DNA of 64,000 nt, taken from positions 1-64,000 of the forward strand of contig JACCXK010000170.1 of NCBI GenBank assembly GCA_013697055.1, written 5' to 3'. The stretch is from Alphaproteobacteria bacterium. Lineage in GTDB: Bacteria > Pseudomonadota > Alphaproteobacteria > Micropepsales > Micropepsaceae. The translations under genes and the position numbers were made by a program. The notes below the pieces were generated by a model. That model did not search any database, had not been told where the DNA came from, and worked only from the letters and a program-made list of their open reading frames with translations. Shown here in pieces: positions 34,273 to 56,401 of this stretch; within the stretch, counting starts at the first letter, position 1, and each line of letters starts with the position of its first letter.

Positions 34273-34637
34273 GCCGCGCGCTTCTTGTAAGGCCCGCGCT
34301 TGGCAACAGGGGCCTCAAGGTTCTCGATCAGCGCCACTATATCACGAACGTCCCAAACCCTATCTGCCACGCCAGCGGCCATTGCCGGGGTCACGCGGAG
34401 AGACTTGTGAACGCGGCAAAAATTATAATGCATGTAGTGCAGCGCAACAGAATGAGCGTGGTTCTCAAGCTTTTTGGAAAAGGCGTTTGTCAGCCGGGTA
34501 AAGCGGCGAATGCTCATCCGCATTGTCAGGTTTTGGCGCTCAACAATGTCCGCAATGCGCGACGCAGCACGAAGGCTGTTGCCCTCAAGCAGGAGGTGCA
34601 GAACTTTCGTGCGGTCTTCGGAAGACAAGCGGTTCAT
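34269..34637 (-). pseudogene. IS1-like transposase with catalytic core deleted in frame
   Basis: The first 31 residues ([20 protein letters not shown] to ASRIADI) are the N-terminal helix-turn-helix of IS1-type transposases common in alphaproteobacteria. They run straight into [40 protein letters not shown] and the Lys-rich end GPYKKRAA, which are the C-terminal part. From memory of intact relatives, about 150 residues with the DDE core (including the VDEIWSF block) are missing, yet the frame is kept. The product (122 residues) could still bind DNA but not transpose. No clear terminal inverted repeats were seen. Confidence 0.7.
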
Positions 34638-34688
34638 GCCCCACAATATAGGGACCAATGCTTGAGCGGTCAAGCATAACAGTTCAGT

Positions 34689-51043: not shown

Positions 51044-52096
<1,053 letters not shown>

Positions 52097-52624
52097 CTAC
52101 ATCGCATCCGGGCCGCGACTGATCGCAGCGACCCCGGTGCGGGAGATTTCGACAAGGCCCAGCGGCCGCATCAAATCGACAAAACTGTCGATCTTGGACG
52201 GGGCGCCGGTGATCTCGAACACAAAGCTGGCCTGGGTTGTGTCCACGGGGCGGGCGCGGAAGGCGTCGGCCATGCGCAGCGCTTCTACCCGCTTCTCGCC
52301 GGTGCCCGCGACCTTGACCAGCGCCATTTCGCGCTCGATCCCGGCCTTGGCGCTGGTCCAGTTGGTGACCTTGTGGGTGGGCACCAAGCGGCGCAGCTGG
52401 GTCTCGATCTGCTCGATCACCGCCGGGGTGCCGCTGGTGACGATGGTGATGCGGGATGTGCGCGCCATAGCGTCCACCTCGGCCACCGTCAGGCTTTCAA
52501 TATTGTACCCGCGGCCGGAGAACAGCCCGACCACGCGCGCCAGCACGCCGGCCTCGTTATCGACCAGCACGGTGAGGGTATGACGCTCAATGTCGGCGGC
52601 CAGCTTGACCTTGGTATCGTGCAT
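52097..52624 (-). CDS. ilvN: Acetolactate synthase small subunit
   Basis: Start at MHDTKVKLAADIERH gives 175 residues. The ACT domain (LTVLVDNEAGVLARVVGLFS, GYNIESLTVAEVD) binds valine for feedback; the C-terminal half (FRARPVDTTQASFVFEITG) contacts the large subunit. Its ATG is one base past the ilvB stop, so both subunits are made together. Confidence 0.95.
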   Translation of the reverse strand: MHDTKVKLAADIERHTLTVLVDNEAGVLARVVGLFSGRGYNIESLTVAEVDAMARTSRITIVTSGTPAVIEQIETQLRRLVPTHKVTNWTSAKAGIEREMALVKVAGTGEKRVEALRMADAFRARPVDTTQASFVFEITGAPSKIDSFVDLMRPLGLVEISRTGVAAISRGPDAM

Positions 52625-52625
52625 C

Positions 52626-54419
52626 TCAGACCAGCATCTTTCCAGCGTCACTGATCTCGCCGCCGTCATCGGGCGACAGCAGCATCTCATTATGCGCCGC
52701 GCCCGACGGGATCATGGGATAGCAGTTCTCGGTGGGATCGACGCGCACGTCGAACAGCACCGGCTTGTTCACCGCGATCATTTCCTTGATCTTGTCGTCC
52801 AGCTCGGACGGCTTGTCGGCGCGCAGGCCGACACAGCCGAACGCATCCGCCATCTTAACGAAATCGGGCAGCGCCTCGGAATAGGAATGCGAATAGCGCT
52901 TGCCATGCAGGATTTCCTGCCACTGCCGCACCATGCCCATATATTCGTTGTTCAGAATGAAGATCTTGATCGGCAGGTCGTACTGAATGGCCGTGGACAT
53001 TTCCTGCATGGTCATCTGCACGCTGGCTTCGCCGGCGATATCGACCACCAGCGCGCCCGGATGGGCCATCTGCACACCCACCGCCGCCGGCAGGCCATAG
53101 CCCATGGTGCCGAGCCCCCCGGAGGTCATCCAGTGATTGGGTTCCTGGAAATGGAACCGCTGTGCCGCCCACATCTGGTGCTGGCCCACTTCCGTGGTGA
53201 TGAACACATCATCACGGTGCTTGGTCAGCTCGTACAGCCGGTCGATGGCATATTGCGGCTTGATGATGGTGTCGGAGTTGCGATAGTCCAGCGACTTCTT
53301 GGTCCGCCATTGGTCGATCTGCTTCCACCACGCCTTCAGCGCATCGGCCTGGACCTTGTGCTTCTGGGTCTTCCAGAAGCGGATGATCTCGCGCAGCGCA
53401 AGGCGCGCGTCCGCGACGATGCCCAGATCCACCCGCACGATCTTGTTGATCTGCGAGGCGTCGATATCCAGGTGGATCTTCTTCGAGCCCGGCGAGAAAG
53501 AGCTGACCTTGCCGGTGACGCGGTCGTCGAAGCGTGCGCCCAGGCAGATCATCAGGTCGCAATCATGCATGGCGTGATTGGCTTCCCAGCTGCCGTGCAT
53601 GCCCACCATGCCCAGCCATTCGGGACGGGCCGCCGGAAAAGCGCCCAGCCCCATCAGGGTCGAGGTGATGGGAAAGCCGGTCAGGTCCACCAGTTCGCGC
53701 AGCAGCTTGGACGCTTCCGGGCCGGAATTGATCAGGCCGCCGCCGGTGTAGAACACCGGCCGCTTCGCCGACGCCATCATCTCCACCGCCTTGACGATGG
53801 CGGACAGGTCCGGATCGGTCTTGGGACGATAAGTGCGGTGATGCACCGCCTGCGGCCCGTGATAGGCGCCGTTCTGGAACTGGACATCCTTGGGAATGTC
53901 CACCACCACGGGGCCGGGACGGCCAGTGGTCGCGATCTCGAACGCCTCGTGCAAGACGCGGCTCAAATCATTGACATCCTTCACCAGCCAATTGTGCTTG
54001 GTGCAGGGCCGGGTGATGCCGACCGTGTCGCATTCCTGGAACGCGTCGGTGCCGATCAGGTGCGTCGGCACCTGGCCGGTCAGCACGATCAGGGGAATGG
54101 AATCCATGAGCGCATCGGTCAGGCCGGTGACGGCATTGGTGGCGCCGGGACCGGAAGTGACCAGCACCACGCCGGGCTTGCCGGTGGAACGGGCATAGCC
54201 TTCTGCGGCATGTACCGCGCCCTGTTCGTGGCGCACCAGCACATGGGTGATGCCTTCGACCTTGAAGAGCGCATCATAGATCGGCAGCACCGCGCCGCCG
54301 GGATAGCCGAAGATGTGGGTGACGCCCTGGTCCTTGAGGGCGCGGATGACCATCTGAGCGCCGGTCATGGTCTCGGCGGCCTGGGCCTCGCTCCGCGTCA
54401 GTGTGTCGTCCTTGTCCAT
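52626..54419 (-). CDS. ilvB: Acetolactate synthase large subunit
   Basis: 597 residues of the thiamine diphosphate family. Glu in VRHEQGAVHAAEGYARSTGK activates ThDP; GEASVQMTMQEMSTAIQYDL and FILNNEYMGM hold the ThDP/Mg site; FAD loop residues (GARFDDRVTGK) are present. It makes acetolactate or acetohydroxybutyrate. A leader peptide with Leu and Val codons and a terminator hairpin lie upstream. A 693-residue frame on the other strand is a shadow. Confidence 0.97.
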   Translation of the reverse strand: MDKDDTLTRSEAQAAETMTGAQMVIRALKDQGVTHIFGYPGGAVLPIYDALFKVEGITHVLVRHEQGAVHAAEGYARSTGKPGVVLVTSGPGATNAVTGLTDALMDSIPLIVLTGQVPTHLIGTDAFQECDTVGITRPCTKHNWLVKDVNDLSRVLHEAFEIATTGRPGPVVVDIPKDVQFQNGAYHGPQAVHHRTYRPKTDPDLSAIVKAVEMMASAKRPVFYTGGGLINSGPEASKLLRELVDLTGFPITSTLMGLGAFPAARPEWLGMVGMHGSWEANHAMHDCDLMICLGARFDDRVTGKVSSFSPGSKKIHLDIDASQINKIVRVDLGIVADARLALREIIRFWKTQKHKVQADALKAWWKQIDQWRTKKSLDYRNSDTIIKPQYAIDRLYELTKHRDDVFITTEVGQHQMWAAQRFHFQEPNHWMTSGGLGTMGYGLPAAVGVQMAHPGALVVDIAGEASVQMTMQEMSTAIQYDLPIKIFILNNEYMGMVRQWQEILHGKRYSHSYSEALPDFVKMADAFGCVGLRADKPSELDDKIKEMIAVNKPVLFDVRVDPTENCYPMIPSGAAHNEMLLSPDDGGEISDAGKMLV

Positions 54420-54454
54420 TCGTCCGTCCTCAAACCTGCAATGCTCGTAACCGC

Positions 54455-54484
54455 ACCAAAGATAAAGGGGCGTCTCCGCCCCTT
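54455..54484 (-). terminator. ilvB attenuator terminator
   Basis: On the minus strand AAGGGGCG-GAGA-CGCCCCTT is followed by TATCTTT. It lies between the leader stop and ilvB (start 54419), where a rho-independent stop would block ilvB unless relieved. Confidence 0.75.
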
Positions 54485-54508
54485 GTCCGCATGGCCGCTA
54501 TGCCCATT

Positions 54509-54526
54509 CCGAAGCGTCAGCTTCGG
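54509..54526 (-). promoter_or_regulatory. Leader hairpin spanning the ilvB leader stop codon
   Basis: CCGAAGC-TGAC-GCTTCGG; the TGA stop of the leader is in the loop, so ribosomes reaching the stop would melt this stem. Confidence 0.6.
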
Positions 54527-54564
54527 GTGGCCAGCGGCCCTCGTACTACGAGCAAATTCATCAT
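54517..54564 (-). CDS. ilvL: ilvB leader peptide
   Basis: The 15-residue frame reads MMNLLVVRGPLATRS. Two Leu and two Val codons in a row (TTG CTC GTA GTA) and a third Leu codon match the end products of the pathway. It lies 97 bases before ilvB and is followed by one hairpin at its stop and a terminator. The layout is that of the classic ilv attenuator leader. No Shine-Dalgarno is seen and the promoter -10 is only 8 bases upstream, so the message may be leaderless. Confidence 0.75.
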   Translation of the reverse strand: MMNLLVVRGPLATRS

Positions 54565-54572
54565 GGCGCGGG

Positions 54573-54601
54573 AACCTAAAGATGGTGCGATGCGGCGTCA
54601 A
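54573..54601 (-). promoter_or_regulatory. Promoter of the ilvB leader
   Basis: TTGACG (-35, 54596-54601) and TAGGTT (-10, 54573-54578) are 17 bases apart on the minus strand. Transcription would start within a base or two of the leader ATG. Confidence 0.6.
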
Positions 54602-54607
54602 GCAATT

Positions 54608-55519
54608 TCACGCAGAATTCTGCCTGAATTGTGTAATTAAATTGCTAACAAGAGGGTCGAACCAGATATAATGTGGCATACGGTGGCGAAACCACGTCAT
54701 CTGGCGCTTGGCGAATTGGCGGGTGGCGGTGACCGCCGTGTCCAGCGCCTCCGTCCGGGTCAGGGTTCCCGCCGCCAGGGCCTGGAGCGGCCGCAGGCCC
54801 AGCAGCTTGGCGGCCGGCAAGGCTGGGTCCAGTCCTTCCAGCGCACGGGCTTCCGCTAGCCCGCCTTCGTCCAGCATGGCCTCAAACCGCGCCGCAATGC
54901 GGGCACGCAGTTCGGGCCGCGGCGGGTCGAGCACGAAGGCGGCGATCTTCGCATCTTTCAACACGGGCGCGCTGGGCGCCTCGTGCCACTCGGCCAGCGG
55001 GCGGCCGGTGGCTTCGAACACCTCAAAGGCGCGCAGCACGCGCTGCGGATCGCTGGGGCGCAGTTTCGATGCGGTGACGGGATCGCGGTCGGTCAATTTG
55101 GCGTGCAGCGCTTCCACGCCGATATCGTCCAGCAAGGCGCGGGCGGCATCGCGGATTTCCGGTGGCGTGGGCGGAATGGCGGCCAAGCCGTCGGTGAGGG
55201 CCATGAAATACATGCCGGTGCCGCCGACAAAGATGGGCACGCGGTTCATGGCACGCGCTTGCGCAATCGCCCTGGCCGCATCGTCGCGCCAGCGCCCCAC
55301 GGAATAGAGTTCGCGCACGCTGACATGGCCGTAGAGCAGATGCTGCACCCGCGCCTTATCCGCATCCGATGGTTGCGCCGTCAGGATGGGCGCTTCGCGA
55401 TAGACCTGCATGGAGTCGGCATTGATCACCACACCGCCGATTTCCTCGGCCAGTTCCAGCGCGGCGGCCGACTTGCCGCTCGCGGTGGGCCCTGCAATAA
55501 GGACGGCGTCAAACTTCAT
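54608..55519 (-). CDS. miaA: tRNA dimethylallyltransferase MiaA
   Basis: The start MKFDAVLIAGPTASG gives 303 residues. P-loop GPTASGKS (10-17), DSMQVY, and the C-terminal FAKRQMTWFRH are family hallmarks. It adds a dimethylallyl group to A37 of tRNAs reading U-starting codons. It is divergent from serB with only 24 bases between the starts, so the promoters overlap each other's genes. It stops just before the ilvB promoter. Confidence 0.95.
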   Translation of the reverse strand: MKFDAVLIAGPTASGKSAAALELAEEIGGVVINADSMQVYREAPILTAQPSDADKARVQHLLYGHVSVRELYSVGRWRDDAARAIAQARAMNRVPIFVGGTGMYFMALTDGLAAIPPTPPEIRDAARALLDDIGVEALHAKLTDRDPVTASKLRPSDPQRVLRAFEVFEATGRPLAEWHEAPSAPVLKDAKIAAFVLDPPRPELRARIAARFEAMLDEGGLAEARALEGLDPALPAAKLLGLRPLQALAAGTLTRTEALDTAVTATRQFAKRQMTWFRHRMPHYIWFDPLVSNLITQFRQNSA

Positions 55520-55543
55520 TTTGACCTTCTCTTGGGCGGCACA

Positions 55544-56401
55544 ATGTTTGTTCTGAATGTCATCGGCAAGGGCGCCGCGCCCGATATCTTCCGCGGGCTG
55601 GACAATGGCCCGGCGACCATCCTGTCGCCCGGCCATGCCTTTGATCTTCCGGTGGCAAACGAGGTGGCGGCGTTGACTGAAGCGCGCGAGCGCGCGCAAG
55701 ACTTCGGCCTGGACATCAACCTGGTATCCACGGTGAAGCGCCGCAAGAAGCTGCTGCTGTCCGACATGGATTCCACCATCATCAATGTCGAATGCCTGGA
55801 TGAGCTGGCCGACATGGCCGGCCTGAAGCCGCAAATCGCCGCCATTACCGAACGCGCCATGCGCGGCGAACTGGAATTCGAGGCGGCGCTGACGGAACGC
55901 GTCGGCTTGTTGAAGGGCCTGAAGCTGGACGCACTGGAGCGCACCTATGCCGAGCGCGTACGGCTCAACCCCGGCGCGAAATCATTGATCGCCACCATGC
56001 GCGCCCATGGCGCCCACACCATGCTGGTGTCGGGCGGCTTCGGCTATTTCACGCAACGCGTGGCCGAGGCGGCGGGCTTTCATACCGAGCGCGGTAACAC
56101 GCTGCTGGATGACGGCACCCACCTGACCGGCGAAGTGTCGACACCGATCCTCGGGCGCGAAGCCAAGGTGAAGGCGTTGGAAGAAGCGGTCGAGGCATTG
56201 AAAATCGAGTTTGCGGAAACGCTGGCAGTGGGCGACGGCGCCAACGATCTCGCCATGATCCAGAAAGCGGGCCTGGGCGTCGCTTATCACGCCAAGCCGG
56301 TCGTCGCGGCAGCCGCCGACGTGGCCATCCAGCATAACGACCTGACCGCCCTGCTCTACCTGCAAGGTTACAGCGACAGCGAAATCGTCAGATCGGATTG
56401 A
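55544..56401 (+). CDS. serB: Phosphoserine phosphatase
   Basis: Start at MFVLNVIGKGAAP; 285 residues. An N-terminal ACT-like part (1-65) precedes the HAD domain: KLLLSDMDSTIINVECLDE (Asp74, Asp76), MLVSGGFGYFT and AVGDGANDLAMI. It removes phosphate from phosphoserine, the last step to serine. The longer frame upstream overlaps miaA and is not used. Its end overlaps the convergent 104-residue gene by 14 bases. Confidence 0.95.
   Translation: MFVLNVIGKGAAPDIFRGLDNGPATILSPGHAFDLPVANEVAALTEARERAQDFGLDINLVSTVKRRKKLLLSDMDSTIINVECLDELADMAGLKPQIAAITERAMRGELEFEAALTERVGLLKGLKLDALERTYAERVRLNPGAKSLIATMRAHGAHTMLVSGGFGYFTQRVAEAAGFHTERGNTLLDDGTHLTGEVSTPILGREAKVKALEEAVEALKIEFAETLAVGDGANDLAMIQKAGLGVAYHAKPVVAAAADVAIQHNDLTALLYLQGYSDSEIVRSD

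Follow-up and report, generated by a model that had tools for sequence, protein, structure and literature searches.

The ilvB operon of this alphaproteobacterium of the Micropepsaceae is preceded by a short leader ORF, a terminator and a promoter lying so close to the ORF that its message may begin at the start codon itself. The question this raises is whether the locus is an attenuator read from a leaderless message. Analysis of a 64,000-nt window (the whole stretch of DNA analyzed), together with upstream regions from related genomes, indicates that it is very probably a ribosome-dependent transcription attenuator of the ilvB operon, with a leader message most likely beginning at its own AUG. 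The gene order on the minus strand is miaA, leader/attenuator and then ilvB-ilvN-ilvC, with the following features:

54608–55549, minus strand: miaA (TIGR00174), whose stop codon is 6 nt before the ilvB leader −35.
54596–54601, minus strand: −35 hexamer TTGACG, from sequence; 133 leaders have a TTGAC ahead of them, at either of two preferred distances.
54573–54578, minus strand: −10 hexamer TAGGTT, from sequence; TA is conserved in relatives at a 16–18 nt spacer.
54565–54572, minus strand: 8-nt gap CCCGCGCC, without any A (sequence and comparison).
54517–54564, minus strand: leader ORF MMNLLVVRGPLATRS, stop TGA at 54519–54517 (sequence; homologous leaders in relatives).
54544–54549, minus strand: valine control codons GTA GTA, codons 6–7 (codon conservation).
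54529–54539, minus strand: 5′ arm of the outer pause stem (segment 1), directly after the control codons.
54509–54526, minus strand: inner hairpin CCGAAGC-TGAC-GCTTCGG, with the stop codon in its loop.
54493–54504, minus strand: 3′ arm of the outer pause stem (segment 2).
54465–54484, minus strand: terminator stem-loop AAGGGGCG-GAGA-CGCCCCTT, then TATCTTTG.
54442–54450, minus strand: conserved TTACGAGCA, complementary to leader nt 11–19.
52626–54419, minus strand: ilvB, acetolactate synthase large subunit (NF006581 and TIGR00118 above cut-off).
52097–52690, minus strand: ilvN, acetolactate synthase small subunit (TIGR00119); ORF as listed, the true start probably further in.
51044–52060, minus strand: ilvC, ketol-acid reductoisomerase (TIGR00465).

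The initial annotation described a TTGACG-17-TAGGTT promoter ending 8 nt before ATGATG, a leader stop codon within a hairpin loop and a terminator ahead of ilvB. Each of these could be located, all on the minus strand, which had not been named. The promoter hexamers are separated by a 17-nt spacer, and the leader ORF of 15 codons opens with ATGATG at 54564. No A separates the −10 from this ATG, whose own A is the likely transcription start. A consensus promoter scan (≥9/12 positions required) does not contain this promoter, so the promoter call rests on conservation. The combined promoter-gap-ATG pattern matches twice in the window, where chance would give 0.05, and the ilvB leader is one of the two. 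The second, at 34635–34673 on the minus strand (TTGACC...TATATT-GTGGGGC-ATG), opens an ORF that may encode a shortened transposase and have a leaderless start.

Relatives were collected by IlvB searches. The window's family, with 96 genomes, gave 79 matches at 1e-150. From named genome contigs, mostly Rhizobiales (Agrobacterium, Rhizobium, Mesorhizobium, Phyllobacterium and others), the best 80 loci were kept. Of 153 genomes drawn from the class, 114 had a match, and 87 of these, all outside the family set, contributed upstream DNA. Nine rows (one from the class draw) duplicated the upstream DNA of another row and were removed, and the comparison comprised 76 family genomes, 72 named loci (from the best 80, duplicates out) and 86 class loci. 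Homologous leaders were called in 74 of the 76 family genomes and in many Rhizobiales. Among the 86 upstream regions of the class draw, only L273 and L274 are clear long leaders, the element being nearly absent there under a calling rule that would miss leaders with a different −35. Calls for L102, L199, L208, L209, L219 and L054 were fixed by eye before counting, and 17 family or named rows are without a call (L195, L220, L012, L013, L015–L020, L025, L029, L031, L033, L037, L050 and L075); L075 appears short by eye. L009, a genome of the window's genus group that is labeled Rhizomicrobium, has upstream DNA identical to that of L204. L005 (labeled Rhizobium sp.) and L006 (labeled Mucilaginibacter sp.) carry ilvB genes 91% and 87% identical to the window's; the upstream DNA of L005 is that of family genome L092, L006 closely resembles family member L096, and both are probably mislabeled MAGs.

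The leader ORF is rich in Leu, Val and Ile codons, ends 25–33 nt before the terminator and recurs across the family, giving the short ORF of end-product codons ahead of a biosynthetic gene that marks an attenuator. The initial annotation pointed to Leu-Leu-Val-Val codons; it is CTC-GTA that appears to matter, not Leu-Leu-Val-Val as such. GTA accounts for 2.1% of valine codons in eight window genes. It is present in 74/74 family leaders and in 38 of the 55 named short leaders (from the best 80 loci). In the family it lies 10–12 codons ahead of the stop, with one exception, and at codon 6 it is invariant among close relatives. GTA is read by the tRNA-Val with anticodon TAC, and tRNA-Val genes with anticodons GAC, CAC and TAC are present among 30/35 tRNA loci of the window's own genome.

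The amino-acid sequence of the leader, by comparison, looks unconstrained. Its dN/dS is 1.2 (dS 0.37) across 13 close relatives, against 0.045 (dS 0.36) for ilvB in the same genomes, and variation is nearly equal across the three codon positions. The suggestion of an active leader peptide thus finds no support at equal dS. A dual-function attenuator, whose RNA or peptide would also act in trans like S. meliloti rnTrpL/peTrpL, would add to our preferred explanation. The leaderless layout matches that system, an attenuated RNA of ∼108 nt is predicted from the terminator position, and peTrpL is reported to be functional despite low peptide conservation (PMC7298713, PMC10117765). Against this stand the dN/dS and codon-position patterns, an indirect test that gives no sign of a peTrpL-like peptide under selection for its own function, and we consider a dual function unlikely.

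Where the message begins is best seen in the distance from the first T of TTGAC to the leader start codon. Over 133 leaders this is bimodal, with 89 short leaders at 36–41 nt, 44 long leaders at 51–74 nt and none at 42–50 nt. The short leaders comprise 34 from the family and 55 named, and the long leaders 40 from the family, 2 named and 2 from the class, the named set being drawn from the best 80 loci. In the short form the gap between −10 and ATG is 8 nt in 78 leaders, 7 nt in 7, 10 nt in 1 and 12 nt in 3; in the long form the −10 lies 22–45 nt from the start codon, with three unmeasurable. All 89 short leaders start with ATG, versus 30 of the 44 long ones (the others being 10 GTG and 4 TTG; Fisher 3.8e-8), and the difference is also found within the family only (34/34 versus 26/40, p 5.4e-5). 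Taken by independent pairs, of which there are only 4, the association between start codon and form is not significant after kinship correction. A Shine-Dalgarno (SD) sequence at −4 kcal/mol or better is found in 0/89 short versus 27/44 long leaders, so that the AUG start and absent SD of leaderless genes coincide in 89/89 short leaders. The presence of ATG in all of them fits the AUG preference reported for leaderless mRNAs (PMC3616915).

In the 85 strict short leaders the gap itself is depleted in A (27 of 673 bases), and in the long form A peaks 7–8 nt after the −10. The simplest reading is that both forms would start transcription at about the same place, which in the short form is the AUG. 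This assignment rests on position, and an RNA with 1–5 extra 5′ nucleotides would be indistinguishable. As a positive control, a Trp-rich trpL precedes trpE in 7/7 rhizobial genomes searched, with a −10 (mostly TAACAA) ∼6–8 nt before the ATG, as read by eye. The claimed likeness to the Sinorhizobium trp leader accordingly holds in promoter-to-AUG spacing. No tandem-Trp leader was found beside L333, the trpE-like locus of the window's own genome.

The leader might instead have an ordinary 5′ UTR, the true promoter lying further upstream or inside miaA and translation starting from an internal AUG. The end of miaA, 6 nt before the −35, leaves no room for a terminator, which makes read-through likely, and the consensus scan did not list the ilvB promoter. 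However, the promoter-AUG register is constant at 36–38 nt in 85 leaders from two groups, with an AUG that lacks an SD, and we judge an ordinary 5′ UTR to be quite unlikely. A leaderless ilvB attenuator without an SD, as first put forward, is well supported by comparison, through the promoter-AUG register, the ATG, the absent SD and the trpL control.

The predicted structure of the leader RNA corresponds to an attenuator. The 108-nt RNA folds at −54.5 kcal/mol (z −5.8; 0/200 shuffles as good), with the stop-codon hairpin nested within an 11-pair outer stem. The loop of a strong hairpin holds the stop codon in 28/34 short family, 54/55 short named and 27/44 long leaders, compared with ∼11% after shuffling. 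The pause stems covary, with two-sided change and pairing kept at 8 of 21 pairs, and 93.4% of pause-stem cells are paired versus 90.5% in shuffles (0/500 shuffles reach this value). The terminator at 54484–54465 is the sole terminator-like site found within 54300–54900, and a terminator is present in 132/133 leaders. Both the pause hairpin around the leader stop, as in ribosome-mediated attenuators, and the intrinsic terminator between leader and ilvB are therefore present.

Antiterminator pairing, assessed by partition function and duplex energy, is not above shuffles (mean z +0.43). A candidate pairing of CGCTTC and GGGGCG in the window's clade does not outperform shuffles, and sequestering of the terminator arm does not increase when the ribosome edge is placed at nt 30–36. 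The locus might also sense no ribosome at all and consist of a chance ORF followed by a constitutive terminator, such as one belonging to miaA. This would agree with the antiterminator result and with the ilvB terminator being the first after miaA, but is highly improbable, since the Leu/Val/Ile-rich ORF, a hairpin at its stop codon and the rare GTA all recur in family members that do not share the peptide.

Downstream of the terminator, TTACGAGCA is complementary to the leader Leu-Val codons (54546–54554) and conserved in 14 close relatives. Its pairing to the control codons could close the whole attenuator in read-through RNA. We tried and rejected this long-range pairing: 93.7% of cells are paired in the 14 relatives, but the covariation is matched by 106/500 shuffles, and such duplexes are not enriched when 74 leaders are tested. 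No Rfam family was found at the gathering threshold, the best bacterial overlap being BjrC68 at 15.4 bits versus 39 needed.

In the mechanism that we propose for the ribosome-dependent attenuator, of which we infer the regulation, the folding order and the antiterminator, RNA polymerase would start at the A of the leader AUG and a ribosome would load directly onto this 5′ AUG. With the charged tRNA-Val that reads GTA and Leu-tRNA plentiful, the ribosome would reach the stop codon, the pause hairpin and then the terminator would form, and the ∼108-nt RNA would be released. With these charged tRNAs scarce, the ribosome would wait at CTC-GTA just before segment 1, such that the outer pause stem could not form and transcription would continue into ilvB. 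The switch probably lowers valine and leucine production when these amino acids are plentiful.

Trees of IlvB place the two forms in order. These are quick searches of one protein, with L146, L155, L156, L158 and L159 excluded as too short. All deep family branches carry the long form, and the window's short form sits within a clade of 29 short rows, while L205 and the borderline L105, L107, L108 and L111 (39–41 nt) are placed among long rows. The family tree has 4 state changes, all forced by well-supported branches, and a tree that unites all short rows in one clade is rejected (p-AU 4.6e-5). Leaving out the four borderline rows lowers the count to 2 changes and does not rescue the single clade (p-AU 0.0016). 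A wider tree with Rhizobiales has at least 6 changes, 5 of them forced. Since the short rows do not form one clade, leaderlessness probably arose repeatedly, and from the branch order we infer the direction to be long to short. L107 and L111, and similarly L108, have AATGGG where L106 has AAGGGG, and this ATG shares the frame of the older start, which follows 12 nt later; L111 still has a GGGG. Conversion of the SD of a sister genome into an in-frame ATG is thus a possible one-step birth of a near-leaderless start.

The junction with miaA suggests what might be gained. The spacing from the miaA stop to the leader −35 is 6 nt in 29/34 short family rows and has a median of 6 nt in 32 long rows (8 further long rows being unrecognised), and this proximity makes the ilvB attenuator the first terminator after miaA. 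A message that runs through from miaA would not be leaderless. In such RNA the internal, SD-less leader AUG would go untranslated and the terminator would always fire; only RNAs from the ilvB promoter would carry a 5′ AUG and be openable by starvation. Leaderlessness may have been selected since the switch then obeys its own promoter only, an insulation that would have been reached repeatedly, once perhaps by the single base change in L107, L111 and similarly L108; we regard this idea as speculative and rather unlikely.

An ilvB attenuator and a leaderless ilvB leader are each already known, the latter in Corynebacterium. Alphaproteobacterial ilvB leader-peptide attenuators have been described in Caulobacter ilvBN, and "an ilvB leader peptide" is credited to Vitreschak 2004 (PMC4117421, PMC1273637); these share the gene, the branched-chain codons and the terminator with the window's, but leaderless starts go unmentioned in the available excerpts of those two papers. 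IlvL of Corynebacterium glutamicum ilvBNC is reported as 15 aa, with a start site one nucleotide from the leader AUG and without a ribosome-binding site (PMC11857589). The 15-residue leader, the start at or near the AUG and the missing ribosome-binding site are shared, but it belongs to another phylum and has a three-hairpin model.

The rnTrpL of S. meliloti is reported to begin at the leader AUG, attenuation releasing a small RNA (PMC7298713, PMC10117765). Its leaderless ORF layout is similar, as is the promoter-AUG spacing in 7 relatives, whereas it has Trp codons and a reported trans-acting peptide and the ilvB leader shows no sign of peptide constraint. The Mycobacterium tuberculosis ilvB1 leader is described with LVVI control codons, GUA being marked as regulatory, and an attenuated RNA of ∼120 nt (PMC13236596); Leu/Val control codons including GUA and a short attenuated RNA are thus common to both. 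Mycobacterial leaderless polycysteine ORFs (Canestrari 2020, as cited elsewhere) are likewise short leaderless attenuator ORFs responding to an amino acid, but use cysteine and translational attenuation. Rare codons are already known as attenuator sensors, for example the rare Leu codons of C. jejuni LeuL. The open-licence literature searched, partly as excerpts and with Tarleton 1994 and Vitreschak 2004 known via citing papers, gave no description of an alphaproteobacterial ilvB leader as leaderless, nor of a switch of form.

It is the repeated switch in initiation mode that merits further attention. Our findings also suggest that what is conserved as the sensor of this attenuator is a single rare valine codon and not the peptide. 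The same regulatory ORF is SD-led in some close relatives and, by our reading, leaderless in others, a natural experiment on the origin of leaderless genes and on whether initiation at a 5′ AUG alters the response of an attenuator.
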